Shown here piece after piece: positions 11,585 through 37,288 of a stretch of 64,000 nucleotides of DNA. The notes beneath the pieces are model-generated. The model was given only the letters and a program-made list of their open reading frames with translations. It was not told where the DNA came from and did not search any database. Each line of letters opens with the position of its first letter. The first letter of the stretch is position 1. The DNA is from Marinifilum flexuosum (GTDB taxonomy: Bacteria; Bacteroidota; Bacteroidia; Bacteroidales; Marinifilaceae): the NCBI RefSeq assembly GCF_003610555.1, contig NZ_RAPQ01000011.1, positions 1 to 64,000 of the forward strand, in the 5' to 3' direction. The translations under genes were made by a program, and so were the position numbers.

Positions 11585-12334
11585 ATGAAAATATTAGTAT
11601 GTATAAGTAATGTTCCAGATACAACCACCAAAGTTAAATTTAAAGAGGGAGATAGCCTGTTTGATGACTCTGGTGTGCAGTGGATCATTAATCCTTGGGA
11701 TGAGTTGGCTTTGACTCGTGCCATGGAACTAAAGGAAGATGCTGGTAATTCAGTGAATGAAATATGTGTAATTCATGTTGGTGGTGCAAGTGCAGATGCT
11801 ACTCTTAGAAAGGCTCTTGCCATTGGCGCTGACAAAGCAGTAAGAATTGATGCATGTCCTGCAGATGCTTATCATGTAGCTGGACAAATTGCAGAATATC
11901 TAAAAGAGAATCCATTTGAGATCATTTTTAGTGGTATTGAATCGAGCGATTACAATGGATCCTCTGTTGGAGCCATGATTGCTGAGTTTATGGATTATCC
12001 GGGAATCTCATCTGTTACATCAGTTAATCTGGATGATGATGATATTCAGGTGAATCGTGCAATTCCAGGTGGAAAGCAGGTACTAAAAACTGAAACTCCA
12101 TTTGTAGCGGTTGTTCAAAAGGGAATCGCAATGGAACCTAGAATTCCTTCTATGCGTGGTATCATGATGGCACGTAAGAAACCTCTGGAAGTTAAACCAG
12201 CTGCTGAATTGGAAGTGTTAACTGAGTCGATAAAGTTTGAATTGCCACAGGAAAAAGGTGCATGTAAAATGATTGATTCAGAATCGGCAGAACAACTGGT
12301 TGATCTGTTAAAGAATGAAGCAAAAGTGCTTTAA
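11585..12334 (+). CDS. etfB: Electron transfer flavoprotein, beta subunit
   Basis: 249 residues. Typical start MKILVCISNVPD, the WIINPWDELAL segment and the signature around VNRAIPGGKQVLKTETPFVAVVQ followed by PRIPSMRGIMMARKKP are all present. It binds AMP or a second flavin and pairs with EtfA encoded 98 bp downstream. It accepts electrons from the acyl-CoA dehydrogenases at 10377 and 25792. Confidence 0.95.
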   Translation: MKILVCISNVPDTTTKVKFKEGDSLFDDSGVQWIINPWDELALTRAMELKEDAGNSVNEICVIHVGGASADATLRKALAIGADKAVRIDACPADAYHVAGQIAEYLKENPFEIIFSGIESSDYNGSSVGAMIAEFMDYPGISSVTSVNLDDDDIQVNRAIPGGKQVLKTETPFVAVVQKGIAMEPRIPSMRGIMMARKKPLEVKPAAELEVLTESIKFELPQEKGACKMIDSESAEQLVDLLKNEAKVL

Positions 12335-12431
12335 TAAAAAATGAAGTAGGTGTGAGAATGAGCGCATTGATTTATAGTAAATGCCTTCGCCTCAAATCTA
12401 AAACTAAGTAGTAACATTTAAAACTTAGCCT

Positions 12432-13400
12432 ATGTCTGTAATTGCATTTGCCAAGAATTGGAATGGGAAATTTAAGAATTCCTCCTTTGAATTGGTTTCA
12501 TATACAAAAGCTTTAGCGAATCAGCTAAATACAAATATGGTAGTTCTTTCTATTGGAGAGGTTGCCGAAGAAGAATTAAAATTATTAGGAAACTATGGTG
12601 CGGATAAAGTTCTCACTGTTAGTGATCCGCAATTGAATACATTAACGAGTAGAGCTTACGCAGATATTGTTGCAAAGGCTGCAGAGTCTGTGGGAGCTGA
12701 AGTAATTGTTTTGTCTGATAACAACAGTGGAAAAGCAATTGCTCCCAGAGTTTCAGTGAAATTAAAAGCAGGACTTGTAGCTGCAGTTCAAGAATTACCG
12801 GTTTCGTTCGAACCATTTGTGGTGAAGAAAAGAGTTTTCTCTGGAAAAGCATTTGGGCATGTTCAAATCAAGTCTGACAAAAAGGTACTTACCATTGCAA
12901 AAAATTGTTTTGGATTATTAGAAGCTTCTTGTGTTGTAGCTATTGAAGAGTTCGCTGTAGACATTGATACAAGCTTGTTTAAAGTAAAGATTGTTGAAGA
13001 GGAAGAGCAAAAAGATAAAGTGATTCTATCTGATGCTGATGTTGTGGTTTCTGCTGGTAGAGGAATGCGTAGTCCTGAAAATTGGGCACCAGTGGAAGAG
13101 TTGGCAGAGGTACTAGGCGCTGCAACAGCTTGTTCTCGTCCGGTTTCTGATGAAGGTTGGCGCGGACATGAAGAGCATGTTGGTCAAACAGGAAAAGTGA
13201 TTGCTCCAAACTTGTATATTGCTGCAGGTATATCTGGTGCAATTCAGCATGTTGCTGGTATTAGTAGAAGCAAGTGCATTGTTGCGATTAATACAGATCC
13301 TGAGGCACCAATATTCGGTGTGGCCGATTATGGTATTGTTGGAGATGTGATGGATGTATTACCAAGATTAACGGAGGCTTTTAGGAATTCAAAATCATAA
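12432..13400 (+). CDS. etfA: Electron transfer flavoprotein, alpha subunit
   Basis: 322 residues. The C-terminal FAD domain is clear: SAGRGMRSPENW, ACSRPVSDEGW, the HVGQTGKVIAPNLYIAAGISGAIQH block split over its conserved stretches, and NTDPEAPIFGVADYGIVGD. The N-terminal domain is short, as usual. Partner of EtfB; together they shuttle electrons to the membrane oxidoreductase encoded immediately downstream. Confidence 0.95.
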   Translation: MSVIAFAKNWNGKFKNSSFELVSYTKALANQLNTNMVVLSIGEVAEEELKLLGNYGADKVLTVSDPQLNTLTSRAYADIVAKAAESVGAEVIVLSDNNSGKAIAPRVSVKLKAGLVAAVQELPVSFEPFVVKKRVFSGKAFGHVQIKSDKKVLTIAKNCFGLLEASCVVAIEEFAVDIDTSLFKVKIVEEEEQKDKVILSDADVVVSAGRGMRSPENWAPVEELAEVLGAATACSRPVSDEGWRGHEEHVGQTGKVIAPNLYIAAGISGAIQHVAGISRSKCIVAINTDPEAPIFGVADYGIVGDVMDVLPRLTEAFRNSKS

Positions 13401-13422
13401 ATAAAGACTAACTCTAAAAACA

Positions 13423-14685
13423 ATGACAAAACAGATCCTCTTCATTATTTCATTGGCAATAACCTTGGGTGTTTTTGCCTGGTCGGTGAAACGATTATGG
13501 GCTTTCTTTAAACTGACCAAGCCATCGTATCCGATCAAAAACATTGGAGCCAGAATTTCTCATACCCTGGATGTGGCTTTTGGCCAAACCAAAATCTTCA
13601 GAAAGCCTGTAATTGGTTTAATGCATGCCCTGGTGTTTTGGGGATTTCTGGTAATTACCCTGGGAAGTATTGAGATTGTGATTGATGGAGTGTTTGGATT
13701 GGAGCGATCATTTGCTTTTACCGGGTGGTTTTATGATTTTGTAATGGCTTCGGGAGATGTGTTTGCCTTGCTAATTATTGTCTTTATAAAAGCTTTCAGT
13801 TTACGAAGAAGCATTCTTCGCATTAAGCGATTTACCGGAGTTGAGATGTCGTCCAAATCTTATTGGGATGCACAAATTGCCTTGTCTTTCATCGGTTTAT
13901 TAATGCTTTCCTTATTGGCTTTTAATGTTGGATACATTAGTAATCATCCCAATGGATACGAAGGAGTTTATCCCGTATCAGCAGCAATTGTAAACCTGGT
14001 TAATTTGGATTTAGGTTGGTTGCAGGAACCTGGTTGGTGGATACACATTTTACTGATTTTTGTATTTGCAAACTATCTTCCATACTCCAAGCATTTTCAT
14101 GTATTTCTTTCAGTCCCTAATGTATTTCTTGCCAATCTGGAGCCGCTTACCAAATATCCCAATCTGGAAAGCATTACAAAAGAAGTTAAGCTAATGCTAG
14201 ATCCAGAAGCTGCTTATGATGAAAGTGAAGAAGTAGCAAGGTTTGGTGTAAAGGATGTGGAGGATGTAAGCTGGAAAAATTATATGGATTCCCTGGCTTG
14301 TACGCAATGTGGCCGTTGTACGGATGTTTGTCCTGCCAATATCACAGGAAAACTATTATCTCCTAGAAAGATATTTGTGGATTTACGAAAGCGAATGGAT
14401 GAAAAAGGGCCGATTGCCATTAAAGGAGAAGATGACGGCAAGTCCTTGTTGAGAGATTACATTACCGAAGAGGAACTTTGGGCTTGTACAACTTGTAATG
14501 CATGTGCCCAGGAATGTCCAATTGATATCAGTCATCCAAATTTAATAATGGATATGAGAAGGTACCTGGTGATGGAAGAAGCAGCAGCACCTGCAGAATT
14601 GAATACCATGTTTACCAATATCGAAAACAATGGTGCACCATGGCAATTTTCACCTGAAGATCGCTTGAAATGGACAGAAGGTTAG
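13423..14685 (+). CDS. Membrane ETF:menaquinone oxidoreductase, cytochrome b/4Fe-4S subunit
   Basis: 420 residues. The N-terminal half has five to six membrane helices of the nitrate-reductase-gamma/HdrE fold with candidate haem ligands H68, H208, H224 and H226. The C-terminal half carries two 4Fe-4S motifs, C293/296/299/303 (CTQCGRCTDVCP) and C355/358/361/365 (CTTCNACAQECP). This matches the N-terminal part of the EtfD-type electron-bifurcation-free ETF dehydrogenase (for example mycobacterial EtfD), in which the CCG-domain part is fused; here it is a separate gene 66 bp downstream. Its place right behind etfBA supports delivery of ETF electrons to menaquinone. Confidence 0.88.
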   Translation: MTKQILFIISLAITLGVFAWSVKRLWAFFKLTKPSYPIKNIGARISHTLDVAFGQTKIFRKPVIGLMHALVFWGFLVITLGSIEIVIDGVFGLERSFAFTGWFYDFVMASGDVFALLIIVFIKAFSLRRSILRIKRFTGVEMSSKSYWDAQIALSFIGLLMLSLLAFNVGYISNHPNGYEGVYPVSAAIVNLVNLDLGWLQEPGWWIHILLIFVFANYLPYSKHFHVFLSVPNVFLANLEPLTKYPNLESITKEVKLMLDPEAAYDESEEVARFGVKDVEDVSWKNYMDSLACTQCGRCTDVCPANITGKLLSPRKIFVDLRKRMDEKGPIAIKGEDDGKSLLRDYITEEELWACTTCNACAQECPIDISHPNLIMDMRRYLVMEEAAAPAELNTMFTNIENNGAPWQFSPEDRLKWTEG

Positions 14686-14707
14686 AAAATATTCAATGAT
14701 ATTACTG

Positions 14708-14733
14708 TAGAGACGCAAGGCCTTACGTCTCTA
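14708..14733. repeat. 26-bp palindrome
   Basis: TAGAGACG-c-AAGGCCTT-a-CGTCTCTA is palindromic except for one position. It sits between the two subunit genes of the ETF dehydrogenase. The TAGAGACG..CGTCTCTA form resembles interspersed palindromes widespread in bacterial genomes. Confidence 0.7.
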
Positions 14734-14751
14734 ACAAAAAAAATATATTAA

Positions 14752-15546
14752 ATGACAGATAAAAAACTACATGTACCAGTAATGGCCGACTTGGCGGCAA
14801 AAGGAGAAAAACCGGAATACCTATACTGGGTTGGATGTGCAGGAGCTTTTGATGATAGATATCAAAAGGTGGCACGTGCATTTGCCAAAATTTTAAACCA
14901 CCTTGAAATTAGCTATGCTGTTCTTGGGAAAGAAGAAAGTTGTACAGGCGATGCTGCTAAGCGGGCTGGCAATGAAATGCTTTTTCAAATGCAAGCCATG
15001 CAAAATATTGAAGTATTGAATGCTTATGAAGTCGATAAAATCATTTGTACTTGTCCTCACTGTTACAATACACTCAAGAATGAGTATCCGGAATTGGGTG
15101 GCAATTACAATGTTATCAATTATACCGAGTTCTTGGATGAAATGATTCAGGATGGTAAGTTGAAGCTTGAAAATAATCCATTCAAAGGAGAATCGATCAC
15201 CTATCATGACCCTTGTTATTTGGGAAGGGGAAATAAGATATATGACGCACCAAGAAATGTGGTTAAGGCTGTGTTTGGTGATGTGAAAGAATTAAAGAGA
15301 TCCAGAAGTTTTGGATTGTGTTGTGGTGCTGGTGGAGCACAAATGTTTAAGGAGGCTGAAAAGGGAGATAAGGAAGTAAACATTGAACGAACTGAGGAAA
15401 TTATCGAAAGAAAGGTGGATAAGGTGGCCTCGGCCTGTCCCTTCTGCATGACCATGTTGACTGATGGTATCAAATTAAAAAATAAGGAATCTGAGCTTCA
15501 GAATTTAGATGTTGCTGAAATTATAGAGAAAGCACTTGAATTGTAG
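14752..15546 (+). CDS. ETF:menaquinone oxidoreductase, CCG-domain subunit (HdrB-like)
   Basis: 264 residues with two CCG domains. The first uses C29, C64 and C99/C101/C104 (CTCPHC); the second is DPCYLGRG (C155), CCGAGGAQMF (C190, C191) and ACPFC (C229, C232). In heterodisulfide reductase HdrB and EtfD such domains ligate cubane or noncubane iron-sulfur clusters. It would form a complex with the preceding membrane subunit and receive electrons from ETF. No membrane segment of its own. Confidence 0.88.
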   Translation: MTDKKLHVPVMADLAAKGEKPEYLYWVGCAGAFDDRYQKVARAFAKILNHLEISYAVLGKEESCTGDAAKRAGNEMLFQMQAMQNIEVLNAYEVDKIICTCPHCYNTLKNEYPELGGNYNVINYTEFLDEMIQDGKLKLENNPFKGESITYHDPCYLGRGNKIYDAPRNVVKAVFGDVKELKRSRSFGLCCGAGGAQMFKEAEKGDKEVNIERTEEIIERKVDKVASACPFCMTMLTDGIKLKNKESELQNLDVAEIIEKALEL

Positions 15547-28184: not shown

Positions 28185-28217
28185 GATAAAAATCGATTCA
28201 CACAAGATAAATATCGA
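28185..28217 (+). promoter_or_regulatory. Two Fnr-like boxes upstream of the hexaheme lipoprotein
   Basis: GATAAAAATCGA (28185-28196) and GATAAATATCGA (28206-28217) share the GAT-N4-ATC core of Crp/Fnr-type operators and are 21 bp apart centre to centre. A near-consensus -7 box TATTTTTA at 28238-28245 would put the second site about 40 bp and the first about 61 bp upstream of the start point, the usual activator positions. The second motif is identical to one at 36445-36456 next to the Crp/Fnr gene. Confidence 0.5.
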
Positions 28218-28330
28218 TTATAATAACCTGTTTCTCGTATTTTTAATGTAGTAAAACTCTTTATTCTGGGGTATAAATCTCGCTGAGCAATTATTGATAA
28301 GCTTTTTACATTGGTCTATATTTATTAGTG

Positions 28331-28395: not shown

Positions 28396-29505
28396 ATGAA
28401 AAAAGCTCGTTTATTTTTTCAACTAATAGGAGTTGGAGTTTTAGCTATATCCTTATCAATAGCCAGTTGTACCAAAGAAGGGCCAATGGGACCTGCTGGA
28501 GCTGATGGAACTGACGGTAAAGATGGGGTAGATGGTAACTCAACATGTTTAGCTTGTCACGGTCAGGAAATCAAGACTACTATTGAAGCTCAATTTTCTC
28601 AATCTGTTCATGTAAGCGGATTAAACGCTGTGGATTATGCTGGAGGAAGATCTTATTGTGCAAGATGTCACTCACATCAGGGATATGTAGAATTTGCCGA
28701 AACAGGGGCTGTTTCAGGGAATATTACTAACCCAACGGCATGGGAATGTGCAACCTGTCATAGTTTGCATGAAACTATGGAAGCTGGTGATTATGCGCTA
28801 AGATTAAATGGAGCAGTAAACCTTCTTACTGATAATACTGTAGTTGTTGATGAAGGCAATAACAATACATGTCTAAACTGTCATCAGTCACGCAGGAATG
28901 GCGAGTACTATGACAAGTATACTGAGGCCCAAACCTTCACGAGAGAGTTTACAGAAGATGATATTGCAGTGTACCAAACTGCAGCATTTGGGCCAGCGGG
29001 TTCTGCCACATTAAATGCAACTTCAGATACATTAACTGTTGTGTTTGATGTACCAACAACTCACGTTTATATTAGTAGTACACATGCAGGACCACATCCT
29101 AGTTCTCAAGGGAATACCTGGATAGGTATTGGTGGTTACACTACTTCAGAAGGAACAATATTTTCGGGACATAGTGATGGTTGTGTGAAATGTCATATGG
29201 GCGAAGCTAGTGGACATACTTTCAAGCCTGAATTAGACAATTGTACGAGTTGTCATGGTGAAAAGAATGTTTATATGGATGCTATTGCTGGTCGAGTTGA
29301 GGCTATTGGTGAGGCATTAGAAGCTATTCATGCGATTCATAAAGAAGATGGAGAGTATCATCCAATGTACGCTTCCATAACAAGAGAACAATTTCAGGCA
29401 TTCTGGAATTTTATGATTCTTCTTGAAGATAGAAGTAATGGAGCTCACAATCCAACTTATACAGAAGCATTATTAGATCAGGCTGAAGCTTTATTAGGAT
29501 TATAA
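28396..29505 (+). CDS. Hexaheme c-type cytochrome lipoprotein with collagen-like segment
   Basis: 369 residues. A lipoprotein signal (lipobox SIASC, Cys25) is followed at once by Gly-X-Y repeats (GPMGPAGADGTDGKDGVDG), a flexible stalk often seen on Bacteroidota surface lipoproteins. Six CxxCH haem motifs follow: CLACH, CARCH, CATCH, CLNCH, CVKCH, CTSCH, with extra His residues that could be distal ligands. The last 80 residues are helical without haem. Expected at the outer membrane, perhaps on the cell surface, in electron transfer. Preceded by the two Fnr-like boxes and followed by a terminator, so monocistronic. Confidence 0.88.
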   Translation: MKKARLFFQLIGVGVLAISLSIASCTKEGPMGPAGADGTDGKDGVDGNSTCLACHGQEIKTTIEAQFSQSVHVSGLNAVDYAGGRSYCARCHSHQGYVEFAETGAVSGNITNPTAWECATCHSLHETMEAGDYALRLNGAVNLLTDNTVVVDEGNNNTCLNCHQSRRNGEYYDKYTEAQTFTREFTEDDIAVYQTAAFGPAGSATLNATSDTLTVVFDVPTTHVYISSTHAGPHPSSQGNTWIGIGGYTTSEGTIFSGHSDGCVKCHMGEASGHTFKPELDNCTSCHGEKNVYMDAIAGRVEAIGEALEAIHAIHKEDGEYHPMYASITREQFQAFWNFMILLEDRSNGAHNPTYTEALLDQAEALLGL

Positions 29506-29577: not shown

Positions 29578-29892
29578 TTATCCTTTTACTTCTTCCACTT
29601 TGAATTTCAGTTTCTCAATTGCTTTCTTCAAGTTTTCCTTGCTTGTTTTATCAGCTTTATAAGAAATTGTAACTTTTTGTGCTTTAAAGTCAACATCTAA
29701 TTTCTTAACACCTTTTTCGAAAGGAATGTTTTTTTCAATCTTACCAGCACATCCCATACAATCCATTTCTACTTTAAAAACAACGGTTTCAACTTTTTTG
29801 TCGCTTTTATTCGCTGCGTAAGATAAAGTAGATGTAATTACAATGCTTAATACTAATAGAGTGCTTTTGAAAATTTTTGATAAATTCTTCAT
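29578..29892 (-). CDS. Exported heavy-metal-associated (HMA) domain protein
   Basis: 104 residues: a signal peptide (about 26 residues, ending SYAA) and one HMA ferredoxin-like domain with the metal motif MDCMGC (C45, C48). Such domains bind Cu(I) or similar ions. In the periplasm it would act as a metal-binding or hand-over protein. It is the last gene of a module with a TonB receptor and a Cys-rich protein, 39 bp downstream of the receptor gene. Confidence 0.88.
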   Translation of the reverse strand: MKNLSKIFKSTLLVLSIVITSTLSYAANKSDKKVETVVFKVEMDCMGCAGKIEKNIPFEKGVKKLDVDFKAQKVTISYKADKTSKENLKKAIEKLKFKVEEVKG

Positions 29893-29931
29893 TTGTTTAA
29901 TTTTTATTGGTTTAGATATGTTAGTGTTTGT

Positions 29932-32157
29932 TTATTCAATTGTTAATCGTAATCCTACATAGAACTTTCTTTCCTGGATTGGTCCCCATATCATCGAGGC
30001 ATCGAAATATTCTCCAAAAGGATCAGTTGCACCAATTATTGGATTCTTCTGAGTATAGTTTCCAAGGTTCTCAGCTCCAACATATATTTCCCAGATTTTA
30101 AATCTCTTTGTGACTTGAGCATTCATTATTGCATAAACAGGAGATTTTTCGCGTCTTTGGTATTGTTCCGGATTTGCCTTTGTTGAAGGAATTCTCATAT
30201 CACCATTAAACTGCGTTGTGAAATCGAACTGCCATTTATTAAAGTTTGTGGCATAGGATGTTGTAATCAATCCCTTAAATCGATTTACATATGGTACCTT
30301 TTGGAATTGGTTATTAATGTCAGCTTTAACATCAGAAAAACGAATTGCTGTTGTTACGTCAAACCTGTCAACAGGAGCAAATTTTAATTCAACCTGGTAG
30401 TTGTTTGCCCATGATTTGCCATCCAAATTATAGAATCTTACTTTGTCAACGCTATTGTCTAAATCGGTTATGATTTGATTATCAAATACAGTTCTATAGA
30501 AATCAGCCGAAAGGGTAAACCCTCTATCAAATAAATCAAAATACTGAGTTAAGCTTAAGCCAAAGTTCCATGCTTTTTCCTGTTTTAGATCTTCTGCAAT
30601 TTCCAAAGATCTGCTAGAGGCTAATAAAAAGCTGTTTTCAGCAATTGGATTTGAAGTTCTTCTACCACTACCAACAGCCAAACGTGCCGTAGTTTTAGGT
30701 GCAAATTGATATCTAAAATGCAAACGTGGGGTTACAAATCCACCGTAAATGTTGTGATCATCGTAACGTAATCCGGTCTGCAAAGTAATGTTATCATTAG
30801 GCAACCAGGTATATTCGATGTATGCACCTGCTACTTTCTCGGTTCTGTCTGTTCCCAGGTTATCTATGCTTAAATGATCTTTAAAATCATCGTACACATA
30901 GGATAAACCAGCAGTATATTTATGCTTTAAATTACCAATATAGGATTGAAACAAAAGATTAGCATAGAAGTACTTTTGTTCTGCATCGTAATTTCTTAAG
31001 CCATAAAATGAGTTTTGCTCATGTGATGCGAAGTTGGTGATTAAAGCAATACTTTTATCATCATCTTTGGGCATGATATAACCAAACTTTGCAAAAGCTT
31101 CGTATCTTCTGGTATCAATATTAATGCGATAAGCATTGTTTAAATCGTTGGGTTGATCCTTTTTAAATCCTTTTTGCCCACCAATTCTTTGTTCATCGAT
31201 AAATTTAGCACCGAACTGTACTTTGAAGAATTCACTGGCATCCCAGTTCCAGCGATTAATGAAATTGTATTGAGTAACCATTGGATCATCAAGAAACATG
31301 TCATGGTTGTGATCGATTTCTCTATCATTATCTTGTCCATGGGCTAAGATAGCAGTACTTAGTTTAGGTGATAATTTTGCAGAAGCTATCATGTTTACTT
31401 CTGCCATTCCCATACTGTTTGCAAAAGTATTTAAATAGAATTTTGGAGCAGTTTGCGGTCTTTGGTAATTGATATTAATTTGCCCGGTAATGGATTCATA
31501 ACCGTTAATTACCGAACCTACACCTTTCGAAACCTGTATGGACTCCATCCATGGTCCAGGAACATATACCATACCATAAACAGAAGCTAATCCTTTAAAG
31601 TTTGGATTCTTTTCTGTCATCATTTCGATATATTTTCCGGTTAAACCCAGAAGTTTAATCGATTTTGCACCTGTTGCTGCATCTGCATATGATACATCAA
31701 CAGAGGCATTGGTTTCGAAGCTTTCTGAAAGATTACAACATGCAGCTTTACAAAGTTCAGCTCCAGTTATATTTTGAGATTGAATAGGATTGTCTCTATC
31801 CAATATGGTGCCTAGTTTTCTTTCAGAAACGATAACTTCGTTCAGTTCAATGTTTGGGACTAGTTCAATTAACAATTCCTTATTTTTGTAATCTTCGATA
31901 CTGATTTCTTTGGTTTTATAACCAACGAATTGAACTACCAGTGTTTTGGAATCATTTATAACATCAATAGTGAAGTTACCATCCATATTGGCAGCCGTAC
32001 CAATACTTGTGTTTTTCCAAAATACTGATGCTCCTGCTAAAGGAACTGTATCTCCTGAATTTTGCTTTTCAACAATTTTACCCTTTATAACTGTACCATT
32101 TGCCATTGATATAAATGGTACAAATAAGAGCATGAGTGTTATTATTTTAATCTTCAT
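29932..32157 (-). CDS. TonB-dependent receptor, probable metal-related
   Basis: 741 residues. Signal peptide, then a carboxypeptidase-regulatory-like domain (about 23-105, GTVIKGKIVE..AGASVFWKNT), a plug domain and a 22-strand-type barrel ending in an aromatic-rich strand (RKFYVGLRLTIE). The plug starts with an unusual cysteine cluster, ELCKAACCNLSESFE (C136, C140, C141), which I recall as typical of the receptors that sit beside HMA proteins in Bacteroidota. Transport of copper or another chelated metal is inferred from that neighbourhood, not proven. A palindromic operator candidate lies 26-50 bp upstream. Confidence 0.88.
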   Translation of the reverse strand: MKIKIITLMLLFVPFISMANGTVIKGKIVEKQNSGDTVPLAGASVFWKNTSIGTAANMDGNFTIDVINDSKTLVVQFVGYKTKEISIEDYKNKELLIELVPNIELNEVIVSERKLGTILDRDNPIQSQNITGAELCKAACCNLSESFETNASVDVSYADAATGAKSIKLLGLTGKYIEMMTEKNPNFKGLASVYGMVYVPGPWMESIQVSKGVGSVINGYESITGQININYQRPQTAPKFYLNTFANSMGMAEVNMIASAKLSPKLSTAILAHGQDNDREIDHNHDMFLDDPMVTQYNFINRWNWDASEFFKVQFGAKFIDEQRIGGQKGFKKDQPNDLNNAYRINIDTRRYEAFAKFGYIMPKDDDKSIALITNFASHEQNSFYGLRNYDAEQKYFYANLLFQSYIGNLKHKYTAGLSYVYDDFKDHLSIDNLGTDRTEKVAGAYIEYTWLPNDNITLQTGLRYDDHNIYGGFVTPRLHFRYQFAPKTTARLAVGSGRRTSNPIAENSFLLASSRSLEIAEDLKQEKAWNFGLSLTQYFDLFDRGFTLSADFYRTVFDNQIITDLDNSVDKVRFYNLDGKSWANNYQVELKFAPVDRFDVTTAIRFSDVKADINNQFQKVPYVNRFKGLITTSYATNFNKWQFDFTTQFNGDMRIPSTKANPEQYQRREKSPVYAIMNAQVTKRFKIWEIYVGAENLGNYTQKNPIIGATDPFGEYFDASMIWGPIQERKFYVGLRLTIE

Positions 32158-32182
32158 GATAAAAATAAATTAATACTATCGT

Positions 32183-32207
32183 AGCTGAAATTGTATACAA
32201 TACAGCT
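32183..32207 (-). promoter_or_regulatory. Palindromic operator candidate before the TonB receptor
   Basis: A perfect 12-bp palindrome ATTGTATACAAT (32190-32201) is flanked by AGCTG on one side and CAGCT on the other, offset by one base. Position just upstream of the start codon suits a repressor or metal sensor; no regulator gene is nearby. Confidence 0.45.
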
Positions 32208-32251
32208 TGATCTATTTTGTAAGTTTTGAATTTTTTGCACGCGAAATGCTA

Positions 32252-32280
32252 CACAATGATAGCAAGTGTATCATTATGTG
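32252..32280 (-). terminator. Stem-loop after the Cys-rich gene
   Basis: CACATAATGATA / TATCATTGTG stem around a 7-nt loop on the minus strand, no strong T run. May separate the Cys-rich gene from the receptor. Confidence 0.4.
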
Positions 32281-32303
32281 ATTTTAATATGGTAATTGTG
32301 AAA

Positions 32304-32756
32304 TCAACACAGGAAAGTGCACAACTTGCTCCTGTCAACTTGTAAATAGTCATCAGGATAATCATCAATATAACCACACTTGGTAATGGTAGCGATTGAA
32401 TCAGAAATTGTGCATAAAGTATTTGTGAAAAGAAGCAAAGTTTCAATAGCAATAGGAGCTTTGCTTGTTTCAACTAATGTAGTATTAGGATCTGTTTTAA
32501 GATAAACCAGATTGTAATCACAACAAAGAACAGGGCTACATTCTGAAATTTCAGAATGATGTTTTTTATTATGATTATGCTCGCTACAACAGCAATTGCA
32601 GTCTACGTGGTTAATACAATCAGTATCTACAGTGAAATGAATTTTTGAATGCTCGCAAGAAAAACAACTGTGCTTAATAAAGTGCACACCACAAAATCCT
32701 GTTAGGTAAAATCCTAATAGAATCAATGTGATTATATTTCGAAACATTTTTTTCAT
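32304..32756 (-). CDS. Cysteine/histidine-rich exported small protein
   Basis: 150 residues. An N-terminal hydrophobic segment (signal or anchor) is followed by HFIKHSCFSCEHSKIHF, then CINHVDCNCCCSEHNHNKKHH, a dense Cys/His cluster, and it ends KLCTFLC. The layout recalls the small 'HYC/CC' proteins encoded next to HMA proteins and TonB receptors in Bacteroidota. Metal binding (copper or zinc) is likely from composition. It is the first gene of the minus-strand metal module. Confidence 0.75.
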   Translation of the reverse strand: MKKMFRNIITLILLGFYLTGFCGVHFIKHSCFSCEHSKIHFTVDTDCINHVDCNCCCSEHNHNKKHHSEISECSPVLCCDYNLVYLKTDPNTTLVETSKAPIAIETLLLFTNTLCTISDSIATITKCGYIDDYPDDYLQVDRSKLCTFLC

Positions 32757-32937: not shown

Positions 32938-33552
32938 TTAATGCCAACCGGTTAACATGCTTTTGAAATTACTTATTATAGAACTTCCAATTGTACAAAC
33001 ATAAATGTGAATGAATAAAAACAATGATAAAATAAATCCTATAACAACATGTAATAAGGCAGTTACCAATAATCCGCTAACTCCAAATAATTGAGGAATA
33101 ATAATTTCTGGGAATAACATTGCTATACCGCTTGCGATGATTATTGGAAAGCCAATATACATGGCTGTTGAGTATATAAATCGCTGCAAAGGATTAAATT
33201 TATTTTCTAATGAAATTGGGAATGGAGGAGCTTGTTTTTTAAACATTCCAAATAAATAAAACACAGATTGATCATATAATCTTTTAAACAATCCTTTCGT
33301 TTTCATTTTGTATTGTTTTCCATTCGAAGTAAATAAGTTTCCAAAAATAAATAGGAGGTAGTTAATACTTAATGCAATTCCACAAATGTTATGCAATTGA
33401 ACCGATAATTCGAATGATATGAGTAGTGGATTTTCTGGATTAGAGTACTGCATACTAATTCCGGTAAGCAATAGTACAATAAAAAGCACAGCATTTAACC
33501 AATGCCAAATTCTAATCCATAAAGGATACAAGTATAGTTTTTCGTTTGCCAT
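32938..33552 (-). CDS. Membrane diheme cytochrome b subunit
   Basis: 204 residues with four membrane helices. Histidines H17 (IWHW), H54 (LHNICG), H168 (LLHVV) and H182 (IHIYV) are at positions expected for two b haems in the cytochrome b561/hydrogenase-thiosulfate reductase b family. It would oxidise menaquinol and pass electrons to the periplasm. The start codon lies 2 bases downstream of the stop of the heptaheme gene, so the two are co-translated and probably form one complex. Confidence 0.85.
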   Translation of the reverse strand: MANEKLYLYPLWIRIWHWLNAVLFIVLLLTGISMQYSNPENPLLISFELSVQLHNICGIALSINYLLFIFGNLFTSNGKQYKMKTKGLFKRLYDQSVFYLFGMFKKQAPPFPISLENKFNPLQRFIYSTAMYIGFPIIIASGIAMLFPEIIIPQLFGVSGLLVTALLHVVIGFILSLFLFIHIYVCTIGSSIISNFKSMLTGWH

Positions 33553-33554
33553 AG

Positions 33555-34487
33555 TTATTTGCTTTTAAAAATTCTAAAAATAGTGTGAGTAAAGATTCCA
33601 ATTAATACTAATCCGAATATAACTACACTTAAAATATTAAGATATTTATTTCGGTTTGCACCAATTACATAGGATTCGTTAATAATTACCGCATTTAAAA
33701 AACCACTTCCTTTTCTCGACTCAAGACTTTTGTAACGATACAAACTAGCCATAAGGTGTGAGTTTGCAGAGTGACATGAAGTACATTCTCTTATTGCGCT
33801 ATCTTTAGACATTACAACATGACTAACCAGAAGACTATCTGAAAGTTGAGTATGGCACTCAATACATCTAACATTTTTAAAGTGAAGTTCCTGATTTGGA
33901 AGCCATTCATGAGATTTTAGAATATTAATGTTTTCTCTTTCCGTTAGCAATTCATATTTGCTTACATCTGCGTGACAGGAAAGACAAATATTATTGTCGT
34001 AACTTACGGTCTCACTAATTTTTTCTCCTATGCGAGCCTGAGTTTTGTAGGTATGAGGATTGTGACAACTCCAGCAAGTAAAAGCATCTGGAGAACGATT
34101 GTAATGCATGCTTTCGTAAAATGCTTCTTCAATTGCTTCGAAATGAAATTTAGCATATTCAGGATCACCTGCATGGCAATCATTACATGCATACATCAAT
34201 TCCATTCGAAGATTGCCTGCATGTGGGAATGTTTCATATTCAGGTGAGTGGCAATCAGTACATTTAAACATTCCATGATTCGATTGTTGGTAGGCTAGGG
34301 TATCAATCATTCGGTTCGAACACATGGATTCCTTAATTTCCATACCAAAATCCTCATTCATGTACTTGTAAGTGCGATGAGCATGACATTTAAGGCATGA
34401 ATGATTTTTATTGGTTTCTTTTTGAGCATATAAGCTGAAAGAAAGCAATAAACATATACATCCCAATATTAATTTTGATAGTTTCAT
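33555..34487 (-). CDS. Membrane-anchored heptaheme c-type cytochrome
   Basis: 310 residues. Signal peptide (about 21 residues), then seven CxxCH motifs: CLKCH, CTDCH, CNDCH, CWSCH, CLSCH, CIECH and CTSCH, and a single C-terminal membrane helix (YLNILSVVIFGLVLIGIF). The paired haems and tail anchor fit a periplasmic multihaem quinol-oxidase partner of the adjoining cytochrome b. No catalytic domain (nitrite, tetrathionate or similar) is recognisable, so it looks like an electron carrier rather than a reductase. Confidence 0.88.
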   Translation of the reverse strand: MKLSKLILGCICLLLSFSLYAQKETNKNHSCLKCHAHRTYKYMNEDFGMEIKESMCSNRMIDTLAYQQSNHGMFKCTDCHSPEYETFPHAGNLRMELMYACNDCHAGDPEYAKFHFEAIEEAFYESMHYNRSPDAFTCWSCHNPHTYKTQARIGEKISETVSYDNNICLSCHADVSKYELLTERENINILKSHEWLPNQELHFKNVRCIECHTQLSDSLLVSHVVMSKDSAIRECTSCHSANSHLMASLYRYKSLESRKGSGFLNAVIINESYVIGANRNKYLNILSVVIFGLVLIGIFTHTIFRIFKSK

Positions 34488-34530
34488 AAAGATTAGGCTT
34501 ATAGGTTTATGAGGATTGGGTGATATGACT

Positions 34531-34563
34531 AAAAAAGGGTATTATTTATTTTTAATACCCTTT
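34531..34563 (-). terminator. Internal terminator in the cytochrome set
   Basis: AAAGGGTATT / AATACCCTTT forms a perfect 10-bp stem followed on the minus strand by TTTAG. It lies between the monohaem cytochrome and the heptaheme gene and may lower expression of the latter two genes. Confidence 0.75.
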
Positions 34564-34582
34564 AATAATCTGAGATGCTATA

Positions 34583-34987
34583 TCATTTTTTGAAAGTTCT
34601 CATGTAATTTATCACAGACCATTGGTCTTTTTTACTAGGAATTTTCTTTTCGTAATTTGGCATTTCATCTCTACCAATTATCGACTTGTAAAATAATTCT
34701 CCATCACTTTGAGCTTGAAATTCGGCAGAAGTAAAATCTCCAGGGAAAGTTTTAAGTCTTGCAGCTTTTGGACCATCTCCTAAACCTGTATTCCCATGAC
34801 ATGAACGACAATGCTTCATATAAACCATTTTGCCTTTATTTACACTAGCCTTGTCATTTGCCAATGGATTCTCCATTTTTTTATATTCTGCTGGAATTTC
34901 CCAAGGACCTGCCTTTTTTTGTTGAACAGTGAACGAAAAGGCAAATAATGCAATGGCAACTAGGATAATAATTTTAAATGTTTTCAT
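34583..34987 (-). CDS. Periplasmic monohaem cytochrome c
   Basis: 134 residues: signal peptide, haem motif CRSCH followed by GNTGLGDGPKA, and a candidate axial methionine in GRDEMPNY, giving a class I cytochrome c. It would carry electrons across the periplasm between the inner-membrane cytochrome b/heptaheme pair and the outer-membrane proteins encoded upstream. Confidence 0.88.
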   Translation of the reverse strand: MKTFKIIILVAIALFAFSFTVQQKKAGPWEIPAEYKKMENPLANDKASVNKGKMVYMKHCRSCHGNTGLGDGPKAARLKTFPGDFTSAEFQAQSDGELFYKSIIGRDEMPNYEKKIPSKKDQWSVINYMRTFKK

Positions 34988-35012
34988 AATTAAATGTTTT
35001 TAATGAAGGATG

Positions 35013-35921
35013 TTAGAATCTAACCAGTATGTTGAATCCGAATAGAAAATCCCCATCATCTATTTTATTTTTGTTGTATAATATATTCCTCTGTGGGGTA
35101 ATTCCTTCATAGTTCGACATAAATACTTGGAATACATGAGTACTAGTACCAATTTCTATACCAAAAGATAGGTTAGCTTCCGGGTCGTTCTCATCCGAAG
35201 CAAATTCTCTCATATCATCAATGTTTAAAGGTTGATCATACTCAAAGAATATTGACATTGAGGGACTCACTTTTGCGCGACCTGCTAAAGAGAGTGCAAC
35301 TTTATCATGCTCAACCAAAGTATCTGTTTTATTAAAATGTGTAAAACTTGGTCCAAACTGTAAGGAAAAATTGTCGTTAAATTTATGAGCTATTAATAAT
35401 TGTGAAAAATAAGACAATCTATCCGAGAATTTATAATCATTCCCAAAGACTGATTTATCTTGAGAGTTGATTGCTAAATTTGCATATACTGCAACAGAAA
35501 CAGGAATAGAGTTGGATTCTGTTTGAGTTAGAACACGGTATTTACCATGAAATTCTTGTAATTTAAATTCTTTGGTGTAACCGTAACCAACCATAATTTT
35601 TTCAGTAATACCATAATTTAACCCCATTCTGATATTCGAAGTTGCATAAATTCCAAAAACATCTTCTAATCCGTTTTCTATAAGACCAAAACGATGTTGG
35701 ACGTGTAATTCGAATTCACCAGCAAATGGAGTGGCTACAGTTTGAGTTTCTGCAAGTAAACCAGTTTCGAATGTTCCGCTTACCGGTTCATTTGCAAACT
35801 CATCAGTTTGTGCATTTACATTTAGTGGATTTCCTAAAATCAGTAAAATAACAAACAGTCCGGTAATAGATCCGAATATGCTAATGTTTTTAGCTTTTTT
35901 GTGAATATATTTTGTACGCAT
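35013..35921 (-). CDS. Outer-membrane beta-barrel protein (DUF5777-like)
   Basis: 302 residues. After an N-terminal signal segment the sequence is a series of amphipathic strands with aromatic girdles (FELHVQHRFGL, IRMGLNYGITEKIMVGYGY, FSLQFGPSFTHF) and ends with an aromatic residue (FNILVRF), a barrel of roughly 12-14 strands. The HVQHRFG start matches what I recall of DUF5777, a family found near c-type cytochromes in Bacteroidota. It lies 25 bases from the monohaem gene. A role as the pore of an outer-membrane electron conduit is an inference. Confidence 0.8.
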   Translation of the reverse strand: MRTKYIHKKAKNISIFGSITGLFVILLILGNPLNVNAQTDEFANEPVSGTFETGLLAETQTVATPFAGEFELHVQHRFGLIENGLEDVFGIYATSNIRMGLNYGITEKIMVGYGYTKEFKLQEFHGKYRVLTQTESNSIPVSVAVYANLAINSQDKSVFGNDYKFSDRLSYFSQLLIAHKFNDNFSLQFGPSFTHFNKTDTLVEHDKVALSLAGRAKVSPSMSIFFEYDQPLNIDDMREFASDENDPEANLSFGIEIGTSTHVFQVFMSNYEGITPQRNILYNKNKIDDGDFLFGFNILVRF

Positions 35922-35933
35922 AGTCTGTAGTTT

Positions 35934-36302
35934 TTAGTCGTTGTTAGCACCTCTGGTTATCCATTCAAGTATCAGTTGTTTTTCAGTTGGACTCAAAGAA
36001 CCATGACCACTGTCTACTTTTTTAAATAATTTACTTTCTCCAGGATTTTCAGTGTTGATGTAATTACCGTCTATCAAGGAGTTATACGCTTTGGATGCAC
36101 TTAGATTAGGGGCAATTCCACCATTATCATGGCATTGTGTACAATTAGATGTGAAAATTGGAATAATGTCATTGCTAAAGCTTACTTCCTGATCTGGTGG
36201 AATAACAACTTCGTCAAACTCAACTGTGTCGTACTCACAAGAGACAAAGCAGAGCAGTGTCGCTAAAATCGTTATAAGATGTACAAATTTGCTCTTCTGC
36301 AT
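35934..36302 (-). CDS. Monohaem cytochrome c lipoprotein
   Basis: 122 residues. Lipobox FVSC (Cys22) and one haem motif CTQCH near 54-58 in the context SNDIIPIFTSN, typical of short 'planctomycete-type' c domains; no clear axial Met, so a second His or Lys may serve. First gene of the minus-strand set, 13 bases before the barrel gene. As a lipoprotein it could sit on the outer membrane next to the barrel. Confidence 0.85.
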   Translation of the reverse strand: MQKSKFVHLITILATLLCFVSCEYDTVEFDEVVIPPDQEVSFSNDIIPIFTSNCTQCHDNGGIAPNLSASKAYNSLIDGNYINTENPGESKLFKKVDSGHGSLSPTEKQLILEWITRGANND

Positions 36303-36444
36303 AGTATTAGATTTTAGATTATGAACTGTTTTCGGTTAATAAGGGCTTTTCACTCTCTTCTAAAGGTAAAGATTTGCAATGTGTACATCTATTATGGGGT
36401 GGCGAGATATCTTTCGAGAGAAAAAGGAATTTATCTAATTCAAA

Positions 36445-36456
36445 TCGATATTTATC
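36445..36456. promoter_or_regulatory. Fnr-like box between regulator and cytochrome set
   Basis: On the minus strand this reads GATAAATATCGA, within TTGATAAATATCGA, one mismatch from the Fnr consensus TTGAT-N4-ATCAA. It is identical over 12 bases to the site at 28206. For the regulator gene a -7-like TATTTTTC lies at 36482-36489, placing the site about 45 bp upstream of its start point; it could equally serve the cytochrome set. Confidence 0.5.
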
Positions 36457-36583: not shown

Positions 36584-37288
36584 ATGGCAAAATTTACTAG
36601 AACAGACAATTGTAAAAATTGTGTTGATTGCAACAAGAAAATCCCCTTATTTCAACTGCTTTCGCAATCAGAATTAACCGATCTTAATACCAGTAGGTTT
36701 GAAGTGAAGTTTAAAGCTGGAGAGACCATTTTTAAACAAGGAACTTCTGCAACTCATTTGCTGATTATTACTTCAGGTTTGGCAAAGTTTTATGTTGAAG
36801 GTGTTCAGGAAAGGCAACTAATTATAAGGATTGTAAAACCTTGGGAAGTTGTTGGACAAGCATCATTGTATTTCGATAATCGTCACCACTATTCAGTGGC
36901 AGCCTTGGTAGATTGTACGGCTTGTTTTATTGAAATAGAATCATTTAAAAAAATGATTCGACAAAATTCGGCTTTTGCTGAAGAGTTTATTACTCAATGT
37001 ACACAGAAAGGTGTTTTTTCTTATGAAAAAATGGTCAGTCTATCACAAAAACAAATGCATGGTAGAATTGCAGATGGTATTTTATACCTTTCCAAAAAAA
37101 TATATGAAAGCAATCAGTTTTCGTTGCACCTATCCAGACAGGATATAGCTGATTTAACTGGAATGTCGAAAGACAGTGCAATTCGAATACTTAAGGAATT
37201 TCACCACGAAGGAATCATAGAATTGGATGGTAGAAATCTTAATGTATTAAATACCGATCAACTTGAACGAATCAGTGAAACAGGATAA
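36584..37288 (+). CDS. Crp/Fnr family regulator with cysteine cluster
   Basis: 234 residues. A cyclic-nucleotide-binding-like beta roll (about 25-140) and a C-terminal HTH_Crp domain with recognition segment LSRQDIADLTGMSKDSAIRILKEF. The N-terminus NCKNCVDC gives C10, C13 and C16, and C111/C114 lie in the roll, a spacing reminiscent of the four ligands of Fnr's oxygen-sensing 4Fe-4S cluster. It is divergent from the cytochrome set, with an Fnr-like box between. Likely controls respiratory genes by oxygen or redox state. Confidence 0.9.
   Translation: MAKFTRTDNCKNCVDCNKKIPLFQLLSQSELTDLNTSRFEVKFKAGETIFKQGTSATHLLIITSGLAKFYVEGVQERQLIIRIVKPWEVVGQASLYFDNRHHYSVAALVDCTACFIEIESFKKMIRQNSAFAEEFITQCTQKGVFSYEKMVSLSQKQMHGRIADGILYLSKKIYESNQFSLHLSRQDIADLTGMSKDSAIRILKEFHHEGIIELDGRNLNVLNTDQLERISETG

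Follow-up and report, generated by a model that had tools for sequence, protein, structure and literature searches.

The Gene Set and Its Layout

In the genome of the marine Bacteroidota bacterium Marinifilum flexuosum (5.17 Mb), a set of genes that we read, with moderate confidence, as a route for extracellular electron transfer is found in a 64,000-nucleotide stretch of contig NZ_RAPQ01000011.1 (positions 1 to 64,000), referred to here as the window. Five of these genes follow one another on the minus strand, from 36302 to 32938. The first encodes a monohaem c-type lipoprotein of 122 amino acids (35934..36302) with a lipobox cysteine, Cys22, and the haem motif CTQCH; in a 44-sequence alignment (A8), where a few relatives read C-X4-CH in place of CXXCH, neither Cys22 nor the residues of the haem motif vary. 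It is followed by a DUF5777 beta-barrel of 302 amino acids, predicted to lie in the outer membrane (35013..35921; PF19089, 254.7 bits against a Pfam cut-off of 23.1), by a soluble periplasmic monohaem cytochrome c of 134 amino acids (34583..34987; PF13442 and PF00034 over their cut-offs, a single N-terminal hydrophobic segment), by a heptahaem c-type cytochrome of 310 amino acids, with seven CXXCH motifs and a C-terminal membrane helix (33555..34487), and by a dihaem, PhsC-like cytochrome b of 204 amino acids (32938..33552; PF01292, 96.2 bits against a cut-off of 30.1). A terminator-like hairpin (34528..34570, minus strand; -14.5 kcal/mol, z -4.2) separates the genes for the soluble cytochrome and the heptahaem protein.

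Two further genes lie on the plus strand. One encodes a divergent Crp/Fnr-family regulator with an N-terminal CxxCxxC (36584..37288; PF00027 and PF13545), and the other a hexahaem c-type lipoprotein of 369 amino acids with a collagen-like stalk, a member of the OcwA/NrfA superfamily (28396..29505; six CXXCH motifs, lipobox Cys25, PF22113 over its cut-off). The operator GATAAATATCGATT stands before both units, at 36443..36456 (minus strand) before the five genes and at 28206..28219 (plus strand) before the hexahaem gene.

A sequence-only reading of the window had claimed that every layer of a trans-envelope path is encoded here, with no terminal reductase domain. All five open reading frames (ORFs) are indeed in place, and comparison of the five proteins with family profiles gave no hit to such a domain up to E 1. 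The five genes proposed as the set also stand; its limits, however, were drawn too narrowly at 32938 to 36302, since the regulator and the hexahaem gene belong to it as well. ORFs were called as greedy ATG frames, so that short genes, genes starting with GTG or TTG, and those cut at the ends are missed.

Conservation of the Set

Nearly all of the 80 Bacteroidota loci compared have the five genes in the same order, which confirms the arrangement as real and beyond chance, taking into account that these loci are the best of 281 relatives and so biased to close homologues. Judged on loci of sufficient length, 60 of 61 have the barrel upstream and 59 of 61 the lipoprotein, and 75 of 76 have the cytochrome b downstream; the co-occurrence for which a check across Bacteroidota had been suggested is found. 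Of the 80 loci, 38 are flanked by at least 7 kb on either side; in these a relative of the regulator is present in 33, the hexahaem gene in 31, and the soluble monohaem cytochrome in 29. In 19 of 61 loci the same run of genes includes the hexahaem gene on its upstream side; in others this gene is found beyond the module on the opposite strand. The nearest named locus is that of Marinifilum sp. D737, whose heptahaem cytochrome is 99% identical.

The heptahaem cytochrome occurs in 19 of 57 related genomes, and the hexahaem protein (E <=1e-15) in the identical 19; DUF5777 is present in 22, namely all 19 carriers and three more. It has to be taken into account that the 19 carriers, which belong to 12 genera, share ancestry and do not represent 19 independent events.

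Shared Operator and Transcription

Across the genome the pattern GATAAATRTCGATT has exactly two sites, one ahead of the hexahaem gene (28206) and one ahead of the five genes (36443); the reversed control of this 14-bp pattern has none. The operator that the sequence-only reading had claimed to be shared by both units is thereby found at these two units and nowhere else, this genome-wide count referring to the exact pattern; within the window there are two further matches at up to two mismatches, one of them adjoining the hexahaem site, where a one-mismatch copy is located at 28185-28198. Across the Marinifilum/Labilibaculum loci the operator is kept about 155 bp ahead of the lipoprotein start, and the 14-mer of the window (at most two mismatches) is present in 21 of the 23 regions upstream of the lipoprotein or hexahaem genes in 13 close loci, against an average of 0.26 in shuffled sequences.

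The FNR box reads TTGAT-N4-ATCAA. The operon copy of the operator, TTGATAAATATCGA, is close to this consensus. In more distant loci the exact box is found upstream of the hexahaem gene in 9 of 48 cases (shuffles average 0.1) and upstream of the lipoprotein gene in 4 of 58 (0.08). All these shuffles preserve two-base blocks only, and the related loci are not independent. The shared operator fits anaerobic control, and the divergent Crp/Fnr regulator would bind it to switch both units together. In some distant relatives of this regulator the N-terminal CxxCxxC is reduced to CxxC.

An element like the hairpin between the soluble cytochrome and the heptahaem gene is present in 11 of 13 loci of the Marinifilum/Labilibaculum group and in 14 of the 33 loci examined, and between Marinifilum and Labilibaculum loci its stems are altered yet still paired through compensating changes. 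The five genes need not, with such an element between them, form one uniform transcript, and the inner-membrane genes may be expressed at a lower level because of the hairpin.

The Inner-Membrane Pair and the Soluble Carrier

The cytochrome b has four invariant histidines (17, 54, 168 and 182), which fits two haems b. Its match to the PhsC profile NF011582 (170.3 bits) falls under the NCBIfam cut-off of 204, and it is 37.6-40.4% identical to the PhsC thiosulfate-reductase cytochromes of enterobacterial plasmids (15 listed of 59 records). The heptahaem protein has an N-terminal signal helix, one C-terminal hydrophobic helix (285-303) and 15 invariant histidines in a 14-sequence alignment (A1); searched against plasmid records, among which there is none from Geobacter, it gave no match.

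The genes for these two proteins are adjacent, with a gap of 2 bp, and in a distant locus (L258, 8797-10344) both are fused in one protein of 515 amino acids that matches both profiles. This gene order and natural fusion lead us to regard the two proteins as a single, predicted quinol:cytochrome c oxidoreductase. In L258, the fusion gene is followed by one for an eight-haem protein.

CbcA of Geobacter is likewise a heptahaem cytochrome. CbcBA is an inner-membrane quinol oxidoreductase of that genus (PMC12307469), which occurs in syntrophic sulfate reducers too (PMC10553843). In design the pair matches CbcL, where a nonahaem c-type cytochrome is fused to a dihaem b-type membrane domain and menaquinol is oxidised for extracellular respiration (PMC6295460). 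The combination of a multihaem c-type protein with a dihaem b-type membrane domain is common to both systems, as adjacent genes here and as a fusion in L258; CbcL, however, has nine haems in its fusion, whereas here a heptahaem is accompanied by a separate cytochrome b gene.

From this pair, the soluble monohaem cytochrome c would ferry electrons over the periplasm. Elsewhere in the same genome (L077, C1:569000-580000), a membrane protein encoded next to Nap-type genes contains a fused domain like this cytochrome, as read from the sequence, and the carrier family may thus also serve nitrate reduction. Another locus of this genome (L076, 2360-4663) encodes a protein of 767 amino acids with eight haem motifs followed by TPR-like repeats, beside a cytochrome-b-like protein, both recognised by eye.

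The Hexahaem Lipoprotein

In an alignment of 52 sequences all six CXXCH motifs of the hexahaem protein are invariant, and six further histidines are conserved at 98-100%. The collagen-like match lies below the Pfam cut-off and the stalk is short; a literature search combining collagen-like stalk, multihaem cytochrome and lipoprotein found none. The AlphaFold2 model, which like all such models contains no haem, has a mean predicted local distance difference test score (pLDDT) of 77.8. By Foldseek, its best match is OcwA (E 6.7e-5), followed by the S-layer undecahaem cytochrome of Carboxydothermus (E 4.8e-4). The same order is obtained with VIA-align, OcwA giving Z 14.1 (223 residues, root-mean-square deviation (rmsd) 3.4) and the S-layer protein Z 13.9 (229 residues, rmsd 3.8), although values of Z near 14 can reflect chance or a common arrangement in mostly helical models, and more weight is therefore given to the profile, which matches OcwA at E 4e-18, the S-layer protein at E 4e-14 and NrfA at E 1e-13.

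OcwA of Thermincola potens is a terminal reductase of the cell surface, with nine haems and two open sites, which also reduces shuttles (PMC6703420). The hexahaem protein is likewise a candidate surface multihaem cytochrome of the NrfA-like fold class; it differs in having six haems and a lipid-anchored collagen-like stalk, whereas OcwA has nine and belongs to a Gram-positive wall.

The alternative that survives best, although we consider it unlikely, is a route to a soluble acceptor, in which the hexahaem protein would be a surface NrfA-superfamily reductase of hydroxylamine, nitric oxide, nitrite or a sulfur oxyanion, fed by the other proteins. Its profile matches octahaem reductases as well as NrfA, its model aligns to NrfA at Z ~12, the cytochrome b is PhsC-like, and OcwA itself reduces nitrite slowly (PMC6703420). 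Against this, OcwA and the Carboxydothermus cytochrome outrank NrfA by all three measures. Moreover, every one of the six motifs ends in an invariant histidine, and the CXXCK catalytic haem of most NrfA proteins is absent. The six further histidines would permit bis-histidine ligation at all six haems; the presence of CXXCH motifs only, together with enough distal histidines for every haem, favours electron transfer over catalysis, although OcwA has enough histidines and yet open sites. Finally, the genome already holds NrfHA-like and Nap-like genes, as read from sequence, and since soluble acceptors would be served by these enzymes, their presence is counted in favour of extracellular electron transfer.

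The Barrel and the Monohaem Lipoprotein

The AlphaFold2 model of the barrel (mean pLDDT 86.4) has 12 long strands. In VIA-align its nearest folds are KdgM (Z 17.8, rmsd 2.0 over 166 residues), NanC, FapF and autotransporter barrels, and because these Z values are close they are used to assign the fold class only; the barrel profile found no sequence match better than E 0.74 among solved structures. In the lipoprotein, the column of the sixth ligand is mostly histidine or methionine. Its profile matches, in the haem-motif region, the solved alpha subunit of hydrazine synthase (E 2e-7), and also FoxE and 4rlr (both E ~2e-4), the latter presumably the monohaem cytochrome PccH of Geobacter.

Several known ways of moving electrons across an outer membrane can be compared with this pair. 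In MtrCAB, MtoAB and PioAB, a 26-stranded barrel surrounds a decahaem cytochrome (PMC8406198), whereas 12 strands are predicted here and the set has no decahaem protein. An MtrAB-like haem wire inside the barrel was set aside on this predicted size, a wire being unlikely in 12 strands against 26 in MtrB-type barrels and 16 in Cyc2. The porin-cytochrome conduits of Geobacter (OmcB and Ext clusters) comprise a periplasmic multihaem cytochrome c, an integral beta-barrel and a redox lipoprotein (PMC6148476). A predicted barrel and a redox lipoprotein, with invariant lipobox cysteine and haem motif, are also clustered here, but with no periplasmic multihaem cytochrome: the multihaem protein has a C-terminal membrane helix and the soluble protein a single haem.

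Cyc2 is probably a closer model. In this protein a cytochrome is fused to a 16-stranded porin, and its haem domain is proposed to close off just the mouth, which would require Fe2+ to enter the pore (PMC8406198). Both systems have one c-type haem with an outer-membrane barrel, and as the Cyc2 barrel is too small for a haem wire and the present one probably so, a small partner would have to enter the pore in both; the present one differs in consisting of two genes, for a lipoprotein and a predicted 12-stranded barrel, and in its predicted outward direction. The Cyc2 motif AXPXFAR[Q/K][T/Y] before CXXCH was not seen by eye in the lipoprotein. A single haem combined with a porin is a known design (PMC8406198), which does not support the contrast with known conduits as the sequence-only reading drew it.

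Nor is the pairing of a barrel with a small monohaem protein, to which that reading had pointed, a mark of this operon. Among 395 Bacteroidota genomes sampled, DUF5777 is found in 153, against a strong heptahaem match (E <1e-40) in nine; at E 1e-3 the heptahaem matches rise to 55, at most five candidates having been scored per genome. Three of the nine genomes with a strong match (G000, G252 and G445) also match DUF5777. In the 30 best DUF5777 loci, inspected with flanks of 1.5 kb, a monohaem protein is present in 23, a YceI-cluster protein in 27 (identified by Pfam on one representative) and the heptahaem in none. DUF5777, a YceI lipocalin and a monohaem protein thus make up a cluster that is widespread in Bacteroidota and has no heptahaem nearby. 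In the loci L079-L108 and in the survey of the phylum, this cluster is at times accompanied by Rieske, DOMON or tRNA_anti-like proteins. A literature search found no paper on DUF5777 among those openly available.

These data raise a second alternative, which appears less probable still: the barrel and the lipoprotein would be a module for envelope protection or small-molecule handling, recruited beside a periplasmic quinol oxidase, with no electrons crossing through the pair. It draws on the neighbours just described and on the YceI lipocalins, which have been found binding ubiquinone-8 or isoprenoids and one of which, in Burkholderia, detoxifies lipid peroxyl radicals together with a cytochrome b561 (PMC9113575). 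The near-constant presence of barrel and lipoprotein in the heptahaem module speaks against it, the FNR-box-like sites fit anaerobic use, and in some distant genomes a one-haem, barrel-like protein that is not a DUF5777 relative stands in the corresponding place.

The latter case concerns distant genomes of family f58, in which a 13-haem protein gives a match to the heptahaem profile; eight stretches from seven of these genomes were examined. Four of them (L261-L264) have a row of genes for a hexahaem protein, a one-haem barrel-like protein, a Rieske-type protein (by Pfam in L261 and L262), one or more small monohaem proteins, the 13-haem cytochrome c and a cytochrome b; the L262 version of this cytochrome b carries a fused NapC-like domain. 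The one-haem proteins (L261 12065-13339; L262 6537-7736; L263 6028-7212; L264 5778-7046) have one N-terminal CXXCH, and their barrel nature is read from signal peptide, length and terminal aromatic residue; the two tested with Pfam gave no family. A relationship with DUF5777 was considered and is not supported (hhalign probability 5%), while the comparison with the monohaem lipoprotein reaches 65%, around the haem motif. These proteins read RP[QE]YSILQ[ST][FY]GTKC and have a Cyc2-like layout, again with no Cyc2 motif seen by eye. The replacement of a two-gene unit by a one-gene unit in four of the seven genomes suggests that what the pathway needs is one haem plus a barrel.

The Proposed Route and Its Weight

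In the reading that we favour, an anaerobically controlled route would carry respiratory electrons from menaquinol to an extracellular acceptor. After the inner-membrane oxidoreductase and the soluble carrier, electrons would reach an outer-membrane unit formed by the predicted barrel and the lipoprotein, whose pairing is suggested by gene order, and which would resemble Cyc2, with a single haem gating the pore and a small soluble redox partner entering it, more than MtrAB. The hexahaem protein would reduce Fe(III), Mn(IV), humics or shuttles at the cell surface, as its fold, lipobox, stalk and co-distribution suggest. The sequence-only reading had proposed both the inner-to-outer-membrane route and the hexahaem protein as its surface terminus, and both proposals gain support from the identical distribution of heptahaem and hexahaem, the private operator, the hexahaem genes lying in the same run and the match to OcwA. 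The crossing of the outer membrane itself is a step that we infer. More tentatively, and as a possibility rather than a probability, the barrel and lipoprotein may be a two-gene, Cyc2-like single-haem gate used across Bacteroidota, with a mediator or metal complex entering the pore and the OcwA-like hexahaem reducing solids.

Several observations weigh against this route. The operon has no periplasmic multihaem protein to bridge the outer membrane, and 7 of the 38 fully flanked loci have no hexahaem gene nearby. Three of the distant genomes (G252, G445 and G216) encode the 13-haem cytochrome and the cytochrome b with neither hexahaem nor barrel in the stretch seen. The match to NrfA makes a small-molecule reductase possible, and, as DUF5777, monohaem protein and YceI are widespread without a heptahaem, the basic function of the barrel pair may be a different one.

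A link with phenotype is offered by Labilibaculum filiforme 59.16B (L147) and L. manganireducens 59.10-2M (L148), both of which carry the regulator and the five genes. The hexahaem gene is present in the former, while the contig of the latter ends before that point. Reduction of Fe(III) citrate and oxides has been shown for both strains, and that of Mn(IV) oxide for 59.10-2M as well, the genes responsible not having been assigned (PMC5760507). That two metal-reducing strains carry the gene set makes the extracellular route testable. It also has to be weighed against the route that metal reduction took 2-16% of the electrons, and that a predicted ferric reductase and NrfHA were the candidates named by the authors (PMC5760507). 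The title of a 2025 paper moves Labilibaculum into Marinifilum, and a search of its text gave no match for iron, manganese, cytochrome or manganireducens (PMC12325347).

In Bacteroidetes, the nearest described arrangement is the cluster of Bacteroidetes_1, similar to those for extracellular electron transfer, from an anode biofilm, with six multihaem cytochromes and a beta-barrel protein (PMC8258643). Cytochromes clustered with a barrel in a member of this group are common to both, and this cluster of seven genes, compared by description only, could be kin of the present set. Porin-cytochromes have been described in Ignavibacteria, in a source whose available part holds no statement on Bacteroidetes conduits (PMC7399161). 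Apart from that possible kin, our searches among openly available papers on Bacteroidota multihaem cytochromes and extracellular electron transfer did not find a description of the operon. Thus, parts of known kinds (a CbcL-type quinol oxidase, an OcwA-like surface cytochrome and a Cyc2-like pairing) occur here in a combination that was not found described in the literature searched.

Bacteroidota are common in anoxic sediments, yet for the Fe(III) and Mn(IV) reduction of Labilibaculum no genes have been assigned (PMC5760507). If the proposed route is correct, electrons would leave a Gram-negative cell by way of a single-haem lipoprotein and a narrow barrel, in a simpler arrangement than the Mtr or Pcc conduits; extracellular respiration could be recognised by these genes in many uncultured Bacteroidales, and there would be a lead on what DUF5777 does, given its presence in so many genomes. 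If the Cyc2-like gate is also correct, anaerobic Bacteroidota would have a metal-reducing pathway without a haem wire through the membrane.

Genomic Context and Direction of Electron Flow

The neighbours of the module were surveyed in 67 loci (L152-L218), after removal of the proteins already labelled; families were named by eye, with Pfam on representatives for some. The most recurrent are a ferredoxin-type protein (28 loci), NrfD (25), a ResB/CcsA-type protein for cytochrome c assembly (24) and a third membrane protein (22). A small four-haem protein is a neighbour in four loci, and other recurring families have no evident link. No soluble reductase that would explain the cytochromes is found among the families recurring in at least 4 of the 67 loci. 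The labelled multihaem neighbours are NapC-like in 25 and 14-haem-like in 11 of the 80 loci.

A cluster for acyl-CoA dehydrogenase, ETF and an iron-sulfur oxidoreductase neighbours the module in 9 to 17 of the 67 loci. In the window, ETF subunits and an HdrD/CCG-type membrane iron-sulfur oxidoreductase, identified from their sequences and from Pfam hits of one relative, are encoded on the plus strand at 11585..15546, and they are 52-70% identical (blastp) to genes in 12 distant module loci. These homologues suggest acyl-CoA oxidation as the source of electrons for menaquinone, by way of an ETF/iron-sulfur oxidoreductase that we take to be the menaquinone-reducing entry. The same chain running inward, with electrons being taken up from Fe(II), a cathode or sulfide-derived sources and passed to the quinone pool, is very improbable: the lipoprotein profile does match, after hydrazine synthase alpha, 4rlr (presumably PccH) and FoxE, Cyc2 works inward (PMC8406198) and Marinifilum has been enriched in electrotroph electrode reactors, with no mechanism given in the part of that report available to us (PMC11830809), but two carriers reduce Fe(III) or Mn(IV) during fermentation (PMC5760507) and the acyl-CoA oxidation genes near the module would deliver electrons to it.

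After the five genes, in Marinifilum and Labilibaculum loci, come genes for an HMA-like small protein, a TonB-dependent receptor and a cysteine-rich small protein (29578-32756, minus strand), which are probably a separate metal-handling unit.

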